A stretch of DNA of 64,000 bases. It comes from Flexilinea flocculi. GTDB taxonomy: Bacteria; Chloroflexota; Anaerolineae; Anaerolineales; Anaerolineaceae. Within the stretch, counting starts at the first letter, position 1, and every line of letters begins with the position of its first letter. The stretch covers positions 482,761 through 546,760 of the forward strand of contig NZ_DF968180.1 of the NCBI RefSeq assembly GCF_001192795.1, read 5' to 3'. This document shows positions 31,915 through 55,019 of this stretch, one piece after another. The notes under the pieces were generated by a model. It saw only the letters and a list, made by a program, of their open reading frames with translations. It made no database searches and was not told the origin of the DNA. The translations under genes and the position numbers were made by a program.

Positions 31915-33021
31915 ATGGAAAAGCTGAGAAAAGAAGCGGTTTTTTTCATAATGAGTCTTGCTGTTTTGTTTTGTTCTTCCTGTAATTCAGGATTCAGGGA
32001 AGAGAAGCGAATTGAAGCAGAAATTTCAACTTTTGTTGCTTCTCGACAAAATGGATCGATTCCAACCATACCAGCTACCACAATAATATTGACAGCCACA
32101 GAAACCGCGATACCTGCGATTCCGACAGTTCCGAGAGTAACGCCATGGATTGCCACGCATGTTCCTGAACAACCTGTAGTCCATTTTACTGATGCAATTG
32201 AAAAAAGCGCTATTGTGCAGAACGCACCATTGCAGCAGTCTACCTCGCAAGAGATCGACCAAAAATATACACCGATCATTGTCGATGCCAATCCATCTGC
32301 TTCAGACTGGCGCAATTGGCCGGTTGTACCTCAACTTTCGAAAACGGCTGCTGATATTTTCTGGTTTGGTGTGAACCATATGGGTACCCGCGCAAATTAT
32401 TTTTCCAAAGTAGGGGATTGTCAGTCCTATTCAAATGTTTTTTTAGGGAATTATGATCAGATTGCCGGTTATTACGAGTTATCCGATGATGAATTGTATT
32501 TAGAAGATGCTATTCATTTTTTCTCCAAAGCATTTGGTGCAGAGAGTCTTGCCGTCAATAATGGAATGAGTGTGGCATCCGTTTTGACATCAACCTGGGC
32601 AGATCCTTCATTCTGCAATCCATATGAGAGTATGATTCAATGCGAATTACGTGTGAATAAACCTTCCATTATTTTTGTCAATCTGGGGACAAATTGGAAT
32701 GTCGATTGGGAAACCAGTATTTACTATGATTACCTGGATGAACTGGTGTATACAATCATTGAAAATGGGACTCTGCCCATTTTATCCTCCAAAGCGGATG
32801 ATGTGGAAGGAGGACACGAAATTAATGAAATTACTGCTCAAATTTCAAAGAAATATGGTATTCCTTTCTTTAATTTTTGGTCTGAAGCGCAAAAATTGGA
32901 GAATGGCGGGCTTGATCCACAACGCGAAAATATCTACTTGTCTATGGAAGCATGGAAAATCCGCAGTTATTGGGCTTTGAAAACATTGCATCATGTTGGA
33001 ATCAGTTTGGGATTGTTTTAA
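31915..33021 (+). CDS. lipoprotein with SGNH-like domain, block-I Cys (paralogue of the gene at 36468)
   Basis: 368 residues. A signal peptide ends in a lipobox-like FCSSC (Cys23), followed by a Thr/Pro/Ile-rich linker (about 45-90) and a globular domain (about 125-365). That domain aligns with the protein at 36468: FSKVGDC (Cys169 where SGNH enzymes have the GDS Ser), ASVL, VNLGTN (block III), LPIL-KAD and FFNFW. The C-terminal DxxH of block V is not conserved here (RENIYLS), so catalysis is doubtful. It may be a surface polysaccharide-binding or acyl-handling partner of the downstream Dlt-like cluster. Function is inferred only from that. Confidence 0.7.
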   Translation: MEKLRKEAVFFIMSLAVLFCSSCNSGFREEKRIEAEISTFVASRQNGSIPTIPATTIILTATETAIPAIPTVPRVTPWIATHVPEQPVVHFTDAIEKSAIVQNAPLQQSTSQEIDQKYTPIIVDANPSASDWRNWPVVPQLSKTAADIFWFGVNHMGTRANYFSKVGDCQSYSNVFLGNYDQIAGYYELSDDELYLEDAIHFFSKAFGAESLAVNNGMSVASVLTSTWADPSFCNPYESMIQCELRVNKPSIIFVNLGTNWNVDWETSIYYDYLDELVYTIIENGTLPILSSKADDVEGGHEINEITAQISKKYGIPFFNFWSEAQKLENGGLDPQRENIYLSMEAWKIRSYWALKTLHHVGISLGLF

Positions 33022-33413: not shown

Positions 33414-33803
33414 ATGAAGCAACTTCGAATCGTAATACTTTTCTGTTTGGTAATACTCATTTGCAGCGCCTGTAACGCATCCTCAAAGGAATCCGGAGCT
33501 GCCAAAGTTGTAGAGTCGTTTTATCATGCGATCGTCAATCAGGAGAGAGATCAAGTGGGCACAATTGCTTGTGCAGCATGGGAAAAAACCGCATTGCGTG
33601 AAATTGATGCATTTATGGGGGTAAAAGCTGAACTTTCTAATGTCACTTGTTCTGTAAAAGAAACCAACGGCGATACGGCTTCTGTAATTTGTACCGGAAA
33701 AATTGCGGCTTCATATGGCAATGAAATTACTGATTTCCCATTGGATGGAAGAATTCACACTGTTGTCAAAGAACAAGGCGAATGGCGTCTTTGCGGGTAT
33801 TAA
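33414..33803 (+). CDS. small lipoprotein, NTF2-like or DUF4878-like
   Basis: 129 residues: a signal peptide with lipobox-like ICSAC (Cys20), then a compact alpha/beta domain beginning AAKVVESFYHAIVNQERDQVG, reminiscent of DUF4878/NTF2-like lipoproteins. Assignment is tentative. ATG 33414 is chosen because it starts the signal peptide; an upstream open frame adds 22 unlikely residues. It is eight bases upstream of the DltX-like microprotein and probably heads the acyltransferase operon. Confidence 0.65.
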   Translation: MKQLRIVILFCLVILICSACNASSKESGAAKVVESFYHAIVNQERDQVGTIACAAWEKTALREIDAFMGVKAELSNVTCSVKETNGDTASVICTGKIAASYGNEITDFPLDGRIHTVVKEQGEWRLCGY

Positions 33804-33811
33804 TAAACCGG

Positions 33812-33928
33812 ATGAAATCTCTTTTTTCACGTGAAAACTTGGCTGCATTGCTGCTGGCATTGTTAATCATTGGATTAATCATCTTTACGGTAGATGAGGC
33901 ACCGCAATGGATTTATCAGGGGTTCTAA
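33812..33928 (+). CDS. DltX-like 38-residue membrane microprotein
   Basis: ATG 33812 to TAA 33926-33928 encodes 38 residues: a short charged N-terminus (MKSLFSRENL), one strongly hydrophobic helix (about 11-27) and the C-terminus DEAPQWIYQGF. Firmicute DltX proteins have the same plan, one helix and a C-terminal aromatic-I-Y-N-x-F motif lying at the DltB active site. The stop abuts the MBOAT ATG, and the MBOAT ribosome-binding site (CAGGGG) lies inside its last codons, so the two are coupled. DltX identity is inferred from size, position and motif, not from a search. Confidence 0.75.
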   Translation: MKSLFSRENLAALLLALLIIGLIIFTVDEAPQWIYQGF

Positions 33929-35344
33929 ATGCTGCTTTCCGACATTCTGATCTTAGCTATTGGCTTGATACTTTTGCGTGTACTGCCGCGAAAAATGCAG
34001 CGCAAATTATTTTTGTTTTTTACTGTTCTTTTTATATTTAAACTCCAACCGGCTGTTCCGATTCGGAATTTTGATTTCTGGTTCCCATTTCTTTCCCTAT
34101 CTGTAACTATCCTTTGCTGGCAACTATGCTCCCGAAGCAAACAAAAAGGAGATTTTACAGATCTTTTGGTCATTCTTGGTGCGATAGCAAGTGTCGAATT
34201 AACACGATTGTTGGATATTTCGAATTTCTTAACAAAAACCAGACCGCCGCAGATCCAGTTATTTCTTATCGGTCTCCTGATATTTTTACTTTTATTGTGT
34301 CTGGCAAGATTTCTGCGATTTCGAAATCAGAAAATCATACTTACTTCAGGAATTGTTTTCCTGATTTTTCTGTTGATTCTATTAAAAACTCCATCCTTGA
34401 CACTGGATATCAGCCGCTTTCTTCGGATGATTTCCGGACAATCTGCAGAAAACGCTGCGATTTCCGATGTGCGCTGGCTTGGCATATCTTATCTTGTTTT
34501 TCGCCTTCTTGCGGTACTGATCGATACAAGAAACGGACGGAAGTTTTCAATGCCTCTCGGGGATTTTTTGATTTATGTCTGTTTCCCACCCGCACTTTCA
34601 GCCGGACCGATTGATCGCTATGACCGGTTTTCTAAAGATCTCAATGCTGTTTCCGGCGAATTGTCCGGCGATTTTATGGCAGCGTTTGAACGGATTTCTG
34701 TGGGATTATTTAAAAAATTCATACTCGCCGATTCTCTTTCCATTGTCGCTTTGTCTTCTCAGAACTCACATCTGTGGATTCATCCATTCTGGGCATGGTG
34801 CGCATTGTTCTTTTACGGACTCCAGATTTATTTCGATTTTTCAGGATATTCTGATATTGCCATCGGATTAGGTCGATTGATTGGAATTCATCTTCCTGAG
34901 AATTTTCAACATCCCTACTTAAAACCGGATATTTCTAAATTTTGGAATAACTGGCATATGACCCTGACACAATGGATTCGCTCCTATGTTTTTAATCCTA
35001 TGACACGAAAGATGCGATCGAATAAAGCACATCCATTGCCGCCGTGGCTGATTATTCTTGTGACGCAAATGACAACGATGCTCATAATCGGTTTATGGCA
35101 TGGCGTGACAGTGAATTTTCTGATTTGGGGAGCCTGGCATGGCTTCGGATTGTTTTTCCACCAGCAATATTACCAGATTACGAAAAACTTGATTACAGAA
35201 TTGCAGGAACACAAACGCTTGCTGTATCACGCTTATACCATCCTCTCAACGACCGTCACCATTTTTTTCGTCATGGCAGGCTGGATATGGTTTGTTATTC
35301 CAAGCACCGGTGATGCCTTACAATTTTTCAGCCGATTATTTTAG
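33929..35344 (+). CDS. MBOAT-family membrane O-acyltransferase (DltB/AlgI/PatA-like)
   Basis: 471 residues with many hydrophobic segments and the MBOAT core: AGPIDRYDRF, FYGLQIYFDFSGYSDIAIGLGRLIGI, FWNNWHMTLTQWIRSYVFNP, then IGLWHGVTVNFLIWGAWHG. His391 and His404 are the conserved MBOAT histidines. Such proteins move an acyl group from a cytoplasmic carrier across the membrane to an extracellular acceptor. The next four genes (two SGNH proteins and a carrier protein) resemble a Dlt-type chain. The acyl group and target polymer are unknown. It starts directly after the microprotein stop. Confidence 0.9.
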   Translation: MLLSDILILAIGLILLRVLPRKMQRKLFLFFTVLFIFKLQPAVPIRNFDFWFPFLSLSVTILCWQLCSRSKQKGDFTDLLVILGAIASVELTRLLDISNFLTKTRPPQIQLFLIGLLIFLLLLCLARFLRFRNQKIILTSGIVFLIFLLILLKTPSLTLDISRFLRMISGQSAENAAISDVRWLGISYLVFRLLAVLIDTRNGRKFSMPLGDFLIYVCFPPALSAGPIDRYDRFSKDLNAVSGELSGDFMAAFERISVGLFKKFILADSLSIVALSSQNSHLWIHPFWAWCALFFYGLQIYFDFSGYSDIAIGLGRLIGIHLPENFQHPYLKPDISKFWNNWHMTLTQWIRSYVFNPMTRKMRSNKAHPLPPWLIILVTQMTTMLIIGLWHGVTVNFLIWGAWHGFGLFFHQQYYQITKNLITELQEHKRLLYHAYTILSTTVTIFFVMAGWIWFVIPSTGDALQFFSRLF

Positions 35345-35353
35345 AAGGTCGTT

Positions 35354-36457
35354 ATGGAAAAAATTTTCCGTATTTTTTGGAAATCTCTGCTCTTTCTTTT
35401 GATTCTCCTGGCACTATATTCGCTGATTCAGCCAGTTCAATGGCTTGGAAAAATCAGCCTTTATAACAGGATTTATCCAGGCAGAGAAAGGCTGCCTTTT
35501 GGTGAAAATCCGCGGATTGCCTATAATTTCAGCCTGAACAACCTGGATGCGATGTTTGCTTCCCATAAGCTGCATCGTGCAGAAAAACAAGATGATGATT
35601 TTCGAATTCTGTTTATCGGTGATTCATCTTTATGGGGAACTTTGTTGAAACCGGAAGAGACCCTTGCCGGACGATTGGATCAGCAGGAAATGATGATCAA
35701 CGGTAAAAAAAGGAAACTTCAAACTTTCAATCTTGCGTATCCGACATTGGCTTTATCTAAAGATTTGTTAATTCTTAATCGTGGTTTGCAGTATCAACCT
35801 GATCTGATTGTCTGGTCATTGACGATGGAATCCTTCCCCTATGACAAACAACTGTCAACTCCATTGGTTAACAATAATCTGCCTGAATTTCTCTATGTGG
35901 CGCAGAAAAGCAATCTGTCAGCTCCCTGGCTTCCATCAACTACCTCACAGTCTTTTTATTCCAGGACATTGTTAGGGCAGCGGCATGACCTGGCAGATCT
36001 GATCCGTCTGCAGCTTTACGGATTTATGTGGGCAGCGACAGGAATTGATCAGGATTACCCATCCGATTATCCAAAACCAAAGACGGATCTTGATGCGGAC
36101 TCAACGTTTCATGGTGTCGAAGGTCCTTATCCTGACGAGAAGATGGCATGGGATCTTTTGACTGCAGCCCACCATCTGGCAGGGCAGATACCAATCTTAA
36201 TCATGAATGAACCAATATTAATTAGTCATGGAAAAAATTCAGAAATCCGCTATAATTTCTATTATCCGCGGCAGGCATATGACGTATGGCGTGAATCTTT
36301 GTTGGAAACCTGTAGATCAAATCACTGGCCTGTCCTCGATGTGTGGAATGTTTTACCGACATCTGATTTTACAAATAGCGCCATACACTATGATGCAAAT
36401 GGTGCTGAAAAATTAGCAAAGTTATTGTCAGATGCTATGGAAAGCATATTTAATTGA
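35354..36457 (+). CDS. membrane-anchored SGNH-fold protein (DltD/AlgJ-like)
   Basis: 367 residues: an N-terminal transmembrane anchor (about 9-28), then an extracytoplasmic SGNH domain with block I LFIGDSSLWGT (Ser91), FNLAYPTLALSKDLLIL, and a C-terminal His345 in SAIHYDANGAEKL. The layout matches DltD and alginate AlgJ/AlgX, which accept the acyl group delivered by the MBOAT partner and pass it to the glycan. AGAAGGTCGTT precedes the ATG, nine bases after the MBOAT stop. The gene's last codons overlap a possible upstream start of the next gene. Confidence 0.8.
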   Translation: MEKIFRIFWKSLLFLLILLALYSLIQPVQWLGKISLYNRIYPGRERLPFGENPRIAYNFSLNNLDAMFASHKLHRAEKQDDDFRILFIGDSSLWGTLLKPEETLAGRLDQQEMMINGKKRKLQTFNLAYPTLALSKDLLILNRGLQYQPDLIVWSLTMESFPYDKQLSTPLVNNNLPEFLYVAQKSNLSAPWLPSTTSQSFYSRTLLGQRHDLADLIRLQLYGFMWAATGIDQDYPSDYPKPKTDLDADSTFHGVEGPYPDEKMAWDLLTAAHHLAGQIPILIMNEPILISHGKNSEIRYNFYYPRQAYDVWRESLLETCRSNHWPVLDVWNVLPTSDFTNSAIHYDANGAEKLAKLLSDAMESIFN

Positions 36458-36467
36458 TTTACGAATC

Positions 36468-37337
36468 ATGAAAAAACCCAAACCCCATCATTTATACAAT
36501 TCTCTTATTCTGATATGTATTTGTCTCCTTCTGTCAAGTTTTTCGTATTATCAGACTGCTGCCGATCCGAAACCATCCGATTATGGCAGGACCTGGCAAA
36601 ATCTCCCGATCATTCCTGAATTATCCGATACAGCCAAACGCATTTTAGCAGATGGACTGCGTAGAGGAAACAATCCGAATGCTTTTTCCAAAGTTGGTGA
36701 CTGTGATACCAGTACAGACTGGTATCTCAGCAATTACGATTTGGATGAGCGTTATTATAATCTGGGCGAATATGCAGACCAATTTCGACCGGTAATCGAT
36801 TTTTTCCGAGGATCTTTTGGACGGCGCAGCCTGGCGGCAAAACCGGGTTTTTCTGCTGCCTCCGTTTTGTCAAACTATTGGACGGATTATTCGATTTGTG
36901 AAACTGGAGAGGTTCCGATCACCTGCGAATATCGAATCAATAATCCTGCTTTTGTATTAATTTCTCTTGGTACGAATGATGGGTATAATCCGCCCTCCTT
37001 TAAAGATAATCTCCGTGCGATTATTGATCTGACTATTGAACAAGGCAGGCTTCCGATCTTGATGACCAAAGCAGATAATGTCGAAAAGGATTTTTCCATC
37101 AATCAGGATATTGCAGACCTTGCTGCAGAATACGATATTCCCCTTTGGAATTTTTGGGCTGCCATACAGGAAATCCCCAATCATGGGCTGGTTGAAGATG
37201 GAATTCATCTGACGTTTTATAAAGAAGATTTTTCAGATCCCGAGTCTTTTCAATATGCCTGGACTTATCGGAATCTGACTGCAATGCAATTGCTTGATAA
37301 AGTACGAAAAATAATTAAAGACATTTCAATAAATTGA
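36468..37337 (+). CDS. second SGNH-like exported protein with Cys in block I
   Basis: 289 residues: an N-terminal signal anchor (about 10-28), then a domain with FSKVGDCDTS (Cys79 at the usual GDS Ser position), ISLGTNDG (block III, Asn170) and EDGIHLT (block V, Asp244 and His247). Apart from the Ser-to-Cys change this is a textbook SGNH set, so a Cys nucleophile is possible. It is paralogous to the lipoprotein at 31915. ATG 36468 follows the previous stop by ten bases; an ATG at 36432 inside the upstream gene is also open. The role is presumably acyl transfer or de-acylation on the same polymer. Confidence 0.75.
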   Translation: MKKPKPHHLYNSLILICICLLLSSFSYYQTAADPKPSDYGRTWQNLPIIPELSDTAKRILADGLRRGNNPNAFSKVGDCDTSTDWYLSNYDLDERYYNLGEYADQFRPVIDFFRGSFGRRSLAAKPGFSAASVLSNYWTDYSICETGEVPITCEYRINNPAFVLISLGTNDGYNPPSFKDNLRAIIDLTIEQGRLPILMTKADNVEKDFSINQDIADLAAEYDIPLWNFWAAIQEIPNHGLVEDGIHLTFYKEDFSDPESFQYAWTYRNLTAMQLLDKVRKIIKDISIN

Positions 37338-37346
37338 AAGGAAATA

Positions 37347-37601
37347 ATGAACCAAACCATTGAAATTCTCACTGAAAAGATAAAAAATGAAATCATCCGG
37401 CAGCCAAAACGATCACTGCAATTTGATGAACCGTTAATCTCAAGCGGGTTAATTGATTCATTCAATCTGGTCGATTTGGCGCTGATGGTGGAAGAAATTT
37501 TCGGTGTTCATATTGATGATTATGAATTGAATTCCGATACTTTTGATACGATCGAAGATTTGGCAATGTTGATCATTGAAAGACAAGAATCCGGGGTTTG
37601 A
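37347..37601 (+). CDS. acyl carrier protein (DltC-like)
   Basis: 84 residues, the usual size of an ACP or PCP. Ser38 in SSGLIDSFNLVDLALMVEE is the predicted phosphopantetheine attachment site (DSxxxxxL motif). AAAGGAAATA precedes the ATG. As the last gene of the MBOAT/SGNH operon it should carry the activated acyl group as a thioester to the MBOAT protein, as DltC does for D-alanine. No adenylating enzyme (DltA) is encoded nearby, so the loading enzyme and acyl group are unknown. Confidence 0.85.
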   Translation: MNQTIEILTEKIKNEIIRQPKRSLQFDEPLISSGLIDSFNLVDLALMVEEIFGVHIDDYELNSDTFDTIEDLAMLIIERQESGV

Positions 37602-43635: not shown

Positions 43636-45348
43636 TTATAAATCTTTATCAATTTCTGATATCTGGTTCATGATGGCTGTAATCTGCTGGATTTGCGCTT
43701 GAACTCGATTCATGGCGCTTTGAATAAAACGTTGGAATGGTTGGATCGCTTGATTCAAATGATCCACCTGGGAATCGATCTCCAGTCTAAATTCTTTGGT
43801 TAATGAATCTGTCAGACGTAATTTGATCTCTGTCATCTGATTTTCAAATTCTTTTTGCGATTTTTTTCGATAATAGGGCAAAACCAGAAAACCGGCAATT
43901 CCAATCCAGAATGCGGCAACGATACTTAAAATGTCTGCCGCTACGGTCGTAGCGATTATCGTTAAAGCAGCGCCAACTCCAATTGCTGAAACTTCAATTG
44001 CCAATGCAGTGGTGACAGCAGTTTGGATATGTTTCATTCCGATGTTGGCTGCCATATCATGTTCCATCTTTTCCAACATTTCATCAATGGAAGCCTGCAT
44101 TTTTTGAAGAAGCGATGACCTCTCTATTTGCTCTCGCGTTGATATTTCTGTGCCCGGGAATTGCGTCTTGCGTGTTTCAATCTGTTTTCGAAATGATTGT
44201 GTCATTTGCTGTTGTTGTGTGTAAATCATTTCTACGATATCAGTTGTTTTTCGTTCAATCTCTGTCGGTAGATTTTTGAGTACCTGTTCTTGAAAGGCAA
44301 TTTGATTTTTTTCTTTCTTCATGATATTGGGAATATTTTTTGCGCGAAAAAGATTTTCGAAGTAAATAGCTCCCTGTTTTTCGATTTCAAAAAAGATAGA
44401 ATCAATTTCCTTAATCGATCGATCAATTTCATTTTGCATATCTTTTTGATAAATCTGAACCTGACTTTGTATTGAGTTGGCGAGTTCCTGGTCTTCCTGA
44501 TAAAACATAAGTTCACCCGTCAATAGATTCAGACATTGCTTTGCCAGGCGTTCGCCGATCCGCAGCGATGAATCCATTTTCAATTGGAATCGGACTGACT
44601 CATCTAATTTTTCCTGGATGTATTTTTCCAGAAGGCTGAATCCGCTTTGATTCCATAAACCTTCAGAGGCTTCTTTTCGGGCTTGTTTGGCAATTTTCGA
44701 ACTGACGGCAAAAACAGGCACATCGCATTTTAATTGTTTATCTGCATTCTCTTTGACGAAATTAATCACACGTTCAATTTCTTGCTGTGTCTGTATCAAA
44801 TCGATTTTATTGAGCACGATGATGATTTTCTTGCCCCATTCTTTGATATTCAGTAAAAATTTGTTTTCACTTTCCGAATAGGGACGATCTGCGGATGAAA
44901 GGAAAATGACTAAATCCGCTTTGGGGAGAAACCAATTGGTCAGGATTTCATGCTCTGCGATGATTGTATTCGTGCCCGGTGTATCCACAAAACTGATTGA
45001 ATCCAATAAAGGAGAAGGCATTTGGATGGATACGCCCCAATCTTCAATTAATGAAACCTGCGTATTCTCTCCATATCGGATAAGCTGGATATTCGCTGTC
45101 GTTGGAGTAACTCCTTCTTCCAACAATTCTGTATTCAACAGTACATTGACAAAAGATGATTTGCCTGCGTTGAATTCACCGACGACGACAATGAGGAATT
45201 TATCTTCAAGCGCTTTTAGTGTCTCTTTAATCGGATGAATCTGATCGGTTGAAATATTTATCTGAGATGCGGCTGATAATAATTCAGTCAAAGAGTTTCT
45301 TACGGAATTGAAAATCCGTTTCTGCTTTTCAGAATAATTCATTGACAT
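43636..45348 (-). CDS. dynamin-family (bacterial dynamin-like) GTPase
   Basis: 570 residues. The GTPase domain has VVVGEFNAGKSSFVN (P-loop, about 57-64), SFVDTPGTNT (G3) and VLNKIDLI (G4). Coiled-coil helices follow, then a hydrophobic hairpin (about residues 440-490) that should insert in the membrane, then a C-terminal helix. Bacterial dynamin-like proteins remodel or repair membranes after GTP-driven assembly. It is a single gene on the minus strand. Confidence 0.88.
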   Translation of the reverse strand: MSMNYSEKQKRIFNSVRNSLTELLSAASQINISTDQIHPIKETLKALEDKFLIVVVGEFNAGKSSFVNVLLNTELLEEGVTPTTANIQLIRYGENTQVSLIEDWGVSIQMPSPLLDSISFVDTPGTNTIIAEHEILTNWFLPKADLVIFLSSADRPYSESENKFLLNIKEWGKKIIIVLNKIDLIQTQQEIERVINFVKENADKQLKCDVPVFAVSSKIAKQARKEASEGLWNQSGFSLLEKYIQEKLDESVRFQLKMDSSLRIGERLAKQCLNLLTGELMFYQEDQELANSIQSQVQIYQKDMQNEIDRSIKEIDSIFFEIEKQGAIYFENLFRAKNIPNIMKKEKNQIAFQEQVLKNLPTEIERKTTDIVEMIYTQQQQMTQSFRKQIETRKTQFPGTEISTREQIERSSLLQKMQASIDEMLEKMEHDMAANIGMKHIQTAVTTALAIEVSAIGVGAALTIIATTVAADILSIVAAFWIGIAGFLVLPYYRKKSQKEFENQMTEIKLRLTDSLTKEFRLEIDSQVDHLNQAIQPFQRFIQSAMNRVQAQIQQITAIMNQISEIDKDL

Positions 45349-49597: not shown

Positions 49598-50776
49598 ATG
49601 GGTAACAAAATGAGTAAGAAGAGCAGGCTGGAATTAGCAACACAAATACAATCCCGATATCTAAAAGCGAACAATGGGGTAAAAGGAAAAATTCTCGATG
49701 AATTTGTCGAGAGCACTGGTTACCACAGGAAGACGGCGATACGTTTATTGCATTCAGATCTTCGGCCAAAGACATTCAAAAAGAGACCTGGGCGGAAAAA
49801 GAAGTATCCTCGAGAGATAATCAAAAAGTTGGAACGGTTGTACGAGATCAGCAATTATATCTGCGGACAGCGATTACAGCCATACATTTCCGAGCTGATA
49901 GATATACTGGAGCGATGCAATGAAATGTACTTCACATCTGAGGAAAAACGTCTGCTAACCGAGATGAGTTCGGCAACGATCAATCGAAATCTGAGGGAAT
50001 ACAAGAAAAACCATCAAGGAAAAGGCAAAACCATGACGAAGCCCGGCGGATTACTCAAGAAACAGATTGCGATCCGAACGGGGATGGACTGGGATGATAA
50101 TCGCCCTGGATTTCTGGAGATAGACCTTGTTGCTCATTGCGGGCAATCAGCAGCAGGAGCTTTCTTTTACACGTTGACAGCTACCGATGTATGCACCGGT
50201 TGGACAGATAACTTCATTCTCCGGAACAAATCAAAGGAAGCCGTTGTGGAAGTGATGACTTTGCTTGAATCCCTTTTACCTTATCCCATCCTTGGTATTG
50301 ATTCTGATAATGGCTCCGAGTTCATCAACCATCTCCTTTTTGATTATTGCAATAATCAGGAAAGAAAGATAATCTTCACCCGATCAAGGCCTTACAGGAA
50401 GAACGATCAAGCTCATGTTGAACAAAAGAACTGGGCCGTAGTCAGACGTTTGCTTGGATACAACCGCTTCTATACTCCAGACCATTTTTCACTCATTCAG
50501 CGAATTTATCAACTGAACCATGTGTTCAATAATTTCTTCCAACCTGTACGTAAGACCATTGCCAGACCAGATAAAGATGCCGGTGTCTTTTCTCCTAAAT
50601 ACGAATCTGCTAAAACACCTTACCGTCGTATCCTCCTTCAATCTGGTGTCTTATCCATTCCTAAAAAGGCCTCTCTTGTAAACCTGTATATTGCATCAAA
50701 TCCCGTCAAGATCCTTGCAGAAATCAATGATCTGCTCCGTATTCTTGCCGAAACTTCTTCTTATCAAACAAAGTAA
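49598..50776 (+). CDS. DDE-type transposase (integrase catalytic core family)
   Basis: 392 residues. The N-terminal region is basic with a helix-turn-helix (GYHRKTAIRLLHSD). The DDE catalytic triad appears in GFLEIDLVAHCG, GIDSDNGSEF and HVEQKNWAVVRR. The protein resembles the ISNCY/IS481-like integrase-core transposases that often read integrase catalytic region. GGAGGAAAGGCTG precedes ATG 49598; an alternative ATG lies at 49610. The gene is intact, so the element may be active. Confidence 0.88.
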   Translation: MGNKMSKKSRLELATQIQSRYLKANNGVKGKILDEFVESTGYHRKTAIRLLHSDLRPKTFKKRPGRKKKYPREIIKKLERLYEISNYICGQRLQPYISELIDILERCNEMYFTSEEKRLLTEMSSATINRNLREYKKNHQGKGKTMTKPGGLLKKQIAIRTGMDWDDNRPGFLEIDLVAHCGQSAAGAFFYTLTATDVCTGWTDNFILRNKSKEAVVEVMTLLESLLPYPILGIDSDNGSEFINHLLFDYCNNQERKIIFTRSRPYRKNDQAHVEQKNWAVVRRLLGYNRFYTPDHFSLIQRIYQLNHVFNNFFQPVRKTIARPDKDAGVFSPKYESAKTPYRRILLQSGVLSIPKKASLVNLYIASNPVKILAEINDLLRILAETSSYQTK

Positions 50777-53126: not shown

Positions 53127-55019
53127 TCAAAGAGCCCTTCCGAGGAACCACCAATAAATGGATATGGCGTTAATCAGAATGGCTGCGATCGTTAAAATGG
53201 CAAAAACCAATGGTGTCTTTTTTCCGATTCCTTGCGCCATCAGGAAAAACAGCGGAAGGATGAAGTCCATCATATATCGATATCCGATTTGTTCTGCCCC
53301 AGTATTATGATACATCAGCAACAAGCTTAGCGAAACAAGGATTGAAATCCAGGCGCCGACATTCCACCAGTTTTTCCGAAGGTTTCGAAAAATGAAGATC
53401 AAAGGTGGCGTCATGAAAAAGATGCTGTATCCCATAATGCCGGGATTGAAATCGATACCGGAGCTATTAATGCTGATCTGTGGAATGCGAAACAGCATAA
53501 CCGATAGGTTCGTTTTTAGAAAATGGGGGTGGAACATACCATATTCTTTTACTGCAGAAACGATCCAACTGGCTCCGTGAATTGTGACATATCCGAAATC
53601 AAACCAGTTGTTGAAACGCAAAAAATTGTAATACAGAAGTAGAAATACCGAGATGACGATTGGGACCGCTGAGGAGAATGTCCAATGAAAAAGCTGCAAT
53701 CTTTGAATTTTCTGCTTTCCTTTTTGAATAAAATAATAAATTCCCAGCAAAAAAGGATATACAGCAAAAATGTTAGGCCTTGCCAGAATTGCCAGCCCAA
53801 GCATGGAACCAGTCAAAAATGGTGATTTTTCTGACAAAACACTCAGAACAGCCAATTCGCAAAAAGTTACGGTTAACACCTGGCTGACGAACCACATTTG
53901 TCCAAGAATTGAAAGCCACCAATGATTTGTCCCGATAGCAAAAACGACAGTGAGCCAAAGGATTCCTGAGCGGTTATCAGGAATCAGACCTTTTTGAGAA
54001 GCTTTTCTAAAAATCAGGAAAATGAGTCCTGTATTAATTGCTCCAACCCACGTTGAAAATAATGTCGTGTTAAAAGTCCATAAGCCGAAGATTTTGATCA
54101 ACGGCATCATGATAATTGCCGGCAATGGAGGATTTGGTACGAACCAATGTCCATTGTAAAATGTCAGATCATGTGTCGTATCCGGATCGGCCAGGAATAA
54201 TTCCCCGCGAAAAAAAGCATCTGCTAAAAGGTGCCAATATGATTTTGCCGGCGTATTCCAGCGACCAACCCATTGTCCAGTCATTCGATAAACTACAAAA
54301 GTAATGAGTGTGATCTGAAAAAATCCATAAAAGGCGCAAAGTTTTGTGTAGAAACGATGATTTTTAAGAACAGGCTGCAGTATTTTGCCGAACAGAAAGA
54401 TCTGTAATGGCAGGAATACATACCATTCAAAATGTTCAATTCGGTAAAACCAGTTTTCGGTTCCGAGAATCCAACAGAGAAAACCATAGATACTATTTGG
54501 AATGATCAGAAACATTGCTGCTGGAAACAGCGAACTGTGCAATTTCGCCCAGACTTTTTGCTCGACCTTTGATCTGAAGAAAAGGTAGAGCTGCAGCGCT
54601 GATAATACTCCCCAGAACAGCAGCCCGTTAATTCGACGTGAAAGCGCCTGAACTGAGGAATCCCATTTTCGAACAGGTGAATAGATAAGGAACAGTATTT
54701 GGATGGAAAAGAAAAAAACTGAATACAGTGTCAGCAGAATTATAAAAAAAAGTTTTTCATTATGAATCAGGCTGCTAATTCCGGAGCGGATCTTTTTTGT
54801 GTTTAGATGTATCGAAAGGATGAAAGCGGTTATCGAAGCGATATTTCCGAGAAGGATGACGCTGAGAATAGCCAGGCGTGTGTTTGAGAATCCCATGAAC
54901 CCAGATAATCCGGATTCAGGCGGGAGAAAAATCAGCTGTAAAAATACAGCGAGTCCTTCAATCATAGTGAGGAAAAGCATCAGGGATGATACAGTCATTT
55001 CAATTGCTTTATACCACAA
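53127..55019 (-). CDS. GT-C type multi-spanning membrane glycosyltransferase
   Basis: 630 residues with about 14 hydrophobic segments. The loop DPDTTHDLTFYNGHWFVPNPPLPAI is a hallmark seen in uncharacterised PMT-like GT-C proteins. It probably uses an undecaprenyl-phosphate sugar to glycosylate an extracellular acceptor. The specific reaction is unknown. It is transcribed away from the hibernation factor gene cluster, whose terminator lies beyond its start. Confidence 0.7.
   Translation of the reverse strand: MWYKAIEMTVSSLMLFLTMIEGLAVFLQLIFLPPESGLSGFMGFSNTRLAILSVILLGNIASITAFILSIHLNTKKIRSGISSLIHNEKLFFIILLTLYSVFFFSIQILFLIYSPVRKWDSSVQALSRRINGLLFWGVLSALQLYLFFRSKVEQKVWAKLHSSLFPAAMFLIIPNSIYGFLCWILGTENWFYRIEHFEWYVFLPLQIFLFGKILQPVLKNHRFYTKLCAFYGFFQITLITFVVYRMTGQWVGRWNTPAKSYWHLLADAFFRGELFLADPDTTHDLTFYNGHWFVPNPPLPAIIMMPLIKIFGLWTFNTTLFSTWVGAINTGLIFLIFRKASQKGLIPDNRSGILWLTVVFAIGTNHWWLSILGQMWFVSQVLTVTFCELAVLSVLSEKSPFLTGSMLGLAILARPNIFAVYPFLLGIYYFIQKGKQKIQRLQLFHWTFSSAVPIVISVFLLLYYNFLRFNNWFDFGYVTIHGASWIVSAVKEYGMFHPHFLKTNLSVMLFRIPQISINSSGIDFNPGIMGYSIFFMTPPLIFIFRNLRKNWWNVGAWISILVSLSLLLMYHNTGAEQIGYRYMMDFILPLFFLMAQGIGKKTPLVFAILTIAAILINAISIYWWFLGRAL

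Follow-up and report, generated by a model that had tools for sequence, protein, structure and literature searches.

A putative MBOAT-SGNH acyl relay with a separate shuttle-motif microprotein in Flexilinea flocculi and related Anaerolineae

How might an acyl group cross the membrane through an operon that resembles the Dlt machinery but lacks DltA, in a lineage for which we know of no teichoic acid production? This question is raised by six genes within a 64,000-nucleotide (nt) stretch of Flexilinea flocculi DNA (contig NZ_DF968180.1; hereafter the window), part of a 3.5 Mb genome in three contigs. They encode a small lipoprotein, a microprotein, an MBOAT acyltransferase, two SGNH proteins (SGNH1, SGNH2) and an acyl carrier protein (ACP). 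An earlier note on this DNA had listed them as six consecutive genes and all are indeed present, on one strand and spaced by 0 to 10 nt, though SGNH2, whose start may be 36432 or 36468, would in the former case overlap SGNH1 by 26 nt. By analogy with known systems, we consider it likely that the operon would encode a transmembrane MBOAT-SGNH acyl relay whose shuttle acts in trans. Such a DltX-type relay is well supported because the microprotein is conserved and ends in a motif-like tail, the MBOAT has no such motif of its own and SGNH1 is DltD-like in extent.

Central to this is the microprotein, whose neighbourhood we surveyed in 36 relative loci (given L numbers; G000 is the window's genome, other G numbers are further genomes) and in a second set of named-genome loci, the best 80 of 234 SGNH1 relatives. 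Since the two sets overlap (L082 is a contig of G010) their counts are not independent. Rows used in alignments, out of those available, were 33/34 (A1), 23/29 (A2), 32/37 (A3), 60/79 (A6) and 56/63 (A7). Gene order proved to be conserved in the relatives, and the microprotein was present in 32 of the 36 loci, preceding the MBOAT gene in 32/32 with that stretch present; the four misses (L067, L070, L072, L079) arise because those contigs begin or end inside the MBOAT gene. The named loci hold the MBOAT in 72 cases and the microprotein in 69. Tails in the first set read WIYQGF (31) or WIYSGF (1) and, among the named loci, WIYQGF (63), WIYLGF (2), WIYQGY (2), WIYQAF (1) or WIYQNF (1), with the motif Tyr unchanged throughout (32/32 and 69/69). 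Differences between the 12 equal-length copies (of 33) that entered a codon test fell 901/451/1463 on the three codon positions, and 21/41/225 in the last eight codons; because of this pattern, which points to selection on the protein sequence, the microprotein is a true gene, selected as a protein. In Leptolinea sp. HRD-7 (L162 8380-10359, L140; AP024711.1) the lipoprotein-microprotein-MBOAT trio lies far from SGNH1 on the same 212 kb plasmid, where all three, the microprotein included, are annotated as hypothetical proteins. According to the excerpted text of a 2025 paper on PatAB (PMC12148441), the Tyr within FXYXXF at the C-terminus of DltX holds D-alanine, and the motif recurs, fused to the MBOAT, in PatA, where its load is acetyl; two annotated DltX genes compared here end FIYNEF. 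A sequence relationship between the microprotein and DltX was also tried and rejected, family searches giving no match, and over the window's genome the DltX family (PF12459) found two weak places elsewhere only (12.8 and 11.4 bits, cut-off 25).

If the shuttle is supplied in trans, the MBOAT should be free of it, and this is what we see. The protein reaches 70 bits against PF03062 (cut-off 27), its only NCBIfam match is DltB (TIGR04091; 213.6 bits, below the equivalog cut-off of 375), its profile found DltB structures only in the PDB at E 0.001 (E 6e-64, 1e-63) and His391 is invariant (32 rows). The genome's three other MBOATs end FIYGKF, FIYTKF and FIYSGF and the operon's has no motif; likewise FXYXXF occurred in the last 14 residues of none of the 68 cluster MBOATs longer than 380 amino acids from named loci. 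A tree of 31 hand-picked sequences separated 17 cluster MBOATs, 5 DltB and 9 others into three groups (support 100/99, 100/100 and 100/99), of which the others carry the motif in 9/9, the cluster in 0/17 and DltB in 0/5. Because of this motif distribution and the three-group tree the cluster MBOAT is, to judge from its sequence, DltB-like in layout yet a lineage of its own.

On the receiving side SGNH1, like the microprotein and the lipoprotein, matched no Pfam family above cut-off, and its Ser91 and His345 are invariant (60 rows). The predicted model (predicted local distance difference test, pLDDT, 93.9; predicted template modelling score, pTM, 0.92) has an SGNH fold plus an N-terminal helix. 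In VIA-align comparisons this modelled fold aligns lengthwise with DltD (3bma, 6o93, 7dxm, 6pfx; 272-286 residues, Z 13.7-14.1, root-mean-square deviation 5.0-5.8), the other SGNH rows shown covering 164-224 residues; because the Z values tie with those of generic SGNH enzymes, we take this as likeness in extent, not as proof.

SGNH2 stays just below the Pfam GDSL cut-off (30.3 bits, cut-off 32.9), and its predicted model (pLDDT 88.8) has a TesA-like SGNH fold. A Cys (Cys91) at its nucleophile position, suspected before, is borne out by the alignments: GDC stands in 23/23 rows, Cys in at least 90% of 56 rows, and the 93 SGNH2-type matches in named loci read GDC (80), GDS (8) or neither (5). 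Both alignments (23 and 56 rows) show Cys156 and Cys165 without exception, and in some of the family the customary Asn or His is missing. One such member is the product of a gene 392 nt ahead of the operon (31915-33021), overlooked by the earlier note, which is 37% identical to SGNH2 over 253 columns, both being GDC proteins; L040, L043 and L059 likewise have an SGNH2-like gene upstream, as do 8 of the 72 named loci with the MBOAT, there on the same strand. L138 and L161 hold five SGNH2-type genes each, a local family expansion. The small lipoprotein has its lipobox Cys20 and Cys53, 79, 93 and 127 invariant in 31/31 rows, together with a weak NCBIfam match (Rv0361_Cterm) below cut-off. In L068 (5663-6913; G057) a single reading frame joins a lipoprotein domain (39% identity, 122 columns) to an SGNH2 domain (35%, 252 columns), and this natural fusion suggests that the two act together.

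What, then, would charge the carrier? The ACP exceeds the Pfam PP-binding cut-off and occurs in 55 of the 80 named loci, with the phosphopantetheine Ser kept in all 55. That DltA is absent, as previously claimed, stands for the window's genome, and no ligase lies near the operon in the window; as a statement that the family has no ligase it falls. An AMP-binding enzyme of 545-595 amino acids sits near the ACP gene in 13 of the 36 relative loci, beginning two bases after it in L053, lying on the opposite strand in L066 and separated from it by an SGNH2 gene in L058. This enzyme, of the fatty acyl-AMP ligase (FAAL) type, is found in 39 of the 80 named loci (39/55 of those with the ACP), in 37 of the 39 on the ACP strand and at most 300 nt after it. 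Its best PDB match is 3kxw (E 4.5e-73, about 250 bits), followed by FAAL domains, 3pbk and FadD32, with alignments to the FAAL-type entries over almost the full length. 3kxw was deposited as 'Saframycin Mx1 synthetase B' and we take it to be a FAAL; the relatives' ligase also has an insertion, presumably a FAAL mark, that is absent from an acetate-CoA-ligase-like enzyme discussed below.

The ligase also follows the system across genomes. Among 61 genomes it occurs in 22 (E <1e-150), all 22 with the cluster MBOAT, and of 301 genomes of the order 151 have SGNH1, taken as the system's marker, 152 have the ligase, 133 have the two together and 131 have neither (Fisher 3e-43, a value that, to the detriment of the argument, ignores shared ancestry and incomplete genomes). 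Put differently, 133/151 genomes with SGNH1 have the ligase as compared to 19/150 without. In the window's genus it was found in none (14 genomes, E 1e-40). Linkage at the loci and co-occurrence among genomes make it very probable that the FAAL-type ligase is part of the system, and its absence here that the window's genus lost it.

In that genus, an alternative loader has to be sought among few enzymes. G000 has two AMP-binding proteins in all, both on another contig than the operon; the larger, which our NCBIfam scan covered, best matches acetate-CoA ligase, while the other measures 445 amino acids. This acetate-CoA-ligase-like enzyme (in G000 at G000:C3:365046-366635) is the AMP-binding candidate common to the genus. 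In G009, a system-bearing genome 98% complete, it is the single AMP-binding protein, so that if any AMP-binding enzyme loads the carrier there, it must be this one; elsewhere AMP-binding matches number 2 (G004, G010), 3 (G021, G049) and 6 (G026). Among the 151 SGNH1 genomes it is present in 9/18 without the FAAL and 4/133 with it (p 3e-7), and outside the window's genus in 4/13 versus 4/133 (p 0.002), both values being uncorrected for ancestry; over the full 301 genomes, its presence shows no association with that of the system (13/151 versus 7/150, p 0.25). That it replaces the FAAL is suggestive only.

These distributions bear on two rival explanations. A diverged but true Dlt system, passing D-alanine from an unrecognised ligase onto a teichoic-acid-like polymer, would have the same five functional parts, and the MBOAT is indeed nearest to DltB while DltC models match the ACP weakly (27.4 and 24.7 bits, cut-offs 68 and 52.35). 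Yet the likeness foreseen by the earlier note came through only in part in Dlt profile searches, DltB and DltC models matching below their cut-offs and DltX not at all; the relatives' linked ligase is of the FAAL type instead of DltA, and AMP-binding proteins amount to the two in G000 and the one in G009. We therefore hold this to be quite improbable. Alternatively, acetyl or a short acyl group could come from acyl-CoA as in PatAB or AlgIJ, with the ACP a bystander from another pathway. PatA does use acetyl-CoA (excerpted text of PMC12148441), and the window's genus, devoid of the FAAL, retains the acetate-CoA-ligase-like enzyme; against this, the ACP gene lies in the operon with its Ser invariant, the FAAL-type ligase tracks the system and the MBOAT falls outside the group with the motif in cis, which makes this explanation unlikely.

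In the relay that we favour, carrier Ser38 would be charged with an acyl group in the cytoplasm, in most relatives by the adjoining FAAL-type ligase and in the window's genus by another route, with the acetate-CoA-ligase-like enzyme as candidate. The DltB-like MBOAT (via His391) would then take the acyl group off the carrier and, on the outer side, attach it to Tyr35 of the WIYQGF tail, which would present it to SGNH1 Ser91 for passage to an envelope acceptor. Outside the cytoplasm, SGNH2, the paralogue upstream of it and the small lipoprotein may act as partners, perhaps in binding the acceptor or in editing. Since the loading enzyme is FAAL-type and not DltA, the cargo probably differs from D-alanine. 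A fatty or other simple acyl group is the probable cargo, though this is the weaker inference, and for a fatty acyl group in particular we would put the chances below even. The earlier note's Dlt-like relay is upheld in its trans microprotein and conserved order but not in a family devoid of a loading ligase nor in its link to GT-C glycosyltransferases. Taken to its full extent, this would amount to a third envelope-acylation architecture, in which a FAAL-charged carrier hands a fatty or non-amino acyl group to a DltB-like MBOAT and on via a DltX-like microprotein to an Anaerolineae surface polymer, making it a lipidation machinery fed by a carrier and using a shuttle in trans, with the window's genus having swapped the loader; we put this forward tentatively, as slightly less than an even bet.

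Several points weigh against these views. The microprotein matched no Pfam or NCBIfam family, DltX (PF12459) included, and has W in place of the first F of FXYXXF; its tail is close to the 'acyl shuttle' motif and its layout DltX-like, with homology unsupported by sequence search. For SGNH1, besides the DltD rows' tie in Z and high deviation, a sequence search of the PDB gave chance matches only and there is no Asp three residues before His345. FAAL models of NCBIfam stay below their cut-offs with the relatives' ligase (three were scanned, the top model being fatty acyl-AMP ligase for two and long-chain-fatty-acid-CoA ligase for one), and the co-occurrence has its mismatches, 18 genomes having SGNH1 without the ligase and 19 the ligase without detected SGNH1. 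As the window's genus lacks the FAAL-type ligase, the acyl donor proposed for the family is a candidate at most in this genome; outside the genus, system-bearing genomes that lack the FAAL (G021, G026, G049) encode additional AMP-binding proteins, and in four genomes (G018 C82, G021 C49, G023 C5, G029 C1) the acetate-CoA-ligase-like gene lies a few kb from a different MBOAT. Lying so near, it may serve these other MBOATs and might supply their systems with acyl groups. Finally, what we observed are genes, conservation, motifs, predicted folds and ligase co-occurrence, and each chemical step of the relay is drawn by analogy with Dlt and PatAB.

Table 1. Genes of the operon and the upstream SGNH2 paralogue (window positions)
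Feature	Position	Strand	Details
SGNH2 paralogue, extra, lipoprotein-like	31915..33021	+	368 amino acids; GDC motif; Tyr in place of the expected last-block His
Small Cys-rich lipoprotein	33414..33803	+	129 amino acids; lipobox Cys20; Cys53, 79, 93, 127
DltX-like microprotein	33812..33928	+	38 amino acids; one hydrophobic stretch; C-terminal WIYQGF (Tyr35)
MBOAT acyltransferase, DltB-like	33929..35344	+	Invariant His391; without own C-terminal shuttle motif
SGNH1, membrane-anchored, DltD-like in extent	35354..36457	+	GDS (Ser91); His345 invariant
SGNH2	36432 (or 36468)..37337	+	Cys91 replaces nucleophilic Ser
Acyl carrier protein (ACP)	37347..37601	+	84 amino acids; phosphopantetheine site GLIDSF (Ser38)

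The system's distribution agrees with a Chloroflexota host as proposed from the sequence before, the closest named SGNH1 relative, at 81% identity, coming from Flexilinea sp. MO118. Of 234 relatives in named genomes, the best 80 are assigned to Chloroflexi, Anaerolineae, Aggregatilineales or genera thereof, except for two labelled 'uncultured bacterium', and the SGNH1 family occurs in 34 of 400 sampled genomes of the phylum, all 34 within the window's class. Promoter and terminator scans found sites no commoner than in shuffled sequence. Beside the operon, no conserved acceptor gene is common among the recurring flank families of the 80 loci; by reading of their sequences, those in 15, 14 and 12 loci look like an ABC transporter, a CTP-dependent lipid kinase and a PIG-L/LmbE deacetylase, respectively, and one in 6 like a GT2. 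That the neighbouring GT-C genes (42141, 53127) make the glycan, as had been proposed, finds no backing here, no common glycosyltransferase being among these families; 42141-43532 matches PMT_2, and Pfam gives nothing for 53127-55019 at E 0.001. The flanks also speak to a third rival, in which carrier and FAAL would activate a fatty acid that ends up in a secreted lipid or natural product, the SGNH proteins being thioesterases and the microprotein a non-chemical stabilising subunit. FAAL-ACP pairs are common in natural-product clusters and SGNH2 resembles TesA; nonetheless, the near-invariant WIYQGF tail fits a shuttle motif and no synthase appears, on the same reading, among the recurring flank families, so we judge it highly unlikely. 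Separate from the operon, an FkbH-domain protein adjoins a small ACP in L077 (8026-10154; G000:C1), FkbH plus ACP being the usual glyceryl-ACP pair. The window further holds a Dynamin-family GTPase gene near the operon (43636-45348) and a reading frame with an integrase core domain just below the Pfam cut-off (49598-50776), a possible mobile element.

Set against known systems, the operon shares with Dlt a carrier, a DltB-like MBOAT free of its own motif, a membrane-anchored SGNH protein of DltD-like extent and a separate microprotein ending aromatic-IYxx-F, a motif in trans with W in first position. It differs in having no DltA, its relatives using a FAAL-type ligase, in gene order, in the extra Cys-type SGNH2 and small lipoprotein, and in that the Dlt family models do not recognise its MBOAT, ACP or microprotein at their cut-offs; so the system falls short of several tests of Dlt membership, yet by its anatomy may well work like Dlt. 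PatA-PatB (peptidoglycan O-acetylation) and AlgI-type pairs likewise relay through an MBOAT, an SGNH protein and a Tyr shuttle motif, but there the motif is part of the MBOAT itself, with acetyl-CoA as the PatA donor, whereas the operon has the motif in trans and a carrier gene. With known FAALs (3pbk, FadD32, 3kxw) the relatives' ligase can be aligned over almost its whole length; it differs in its link to an MBOAT-SGNH relay and in staying under NCBIfam subfamily cut-offs. We found no paper joining 'fatty acyl-AMP ligase' with 'MBOAT' in a literature search whose coverage ended short of a 2023 Dlt mechanism paper, and on the FXYXXF shuttle motif only the PatAB paper and one merely citing it. 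According to the excerpted text of the PatAB paper (PMC12148441), MBOAT-SGNH pathways except Dlt have neither a carrier protein nor a DltX-like microprotein. The family described here, spread through Anaerolineae, has both, together with another kind of ligase, which suggests a trans shuttle independent of D-alanine and of teichoic acid. The family lends itself to testing the shuttle motif in nature, and it suggests an acylated molecule on the cell surface in a class whose envelope has received little attention.

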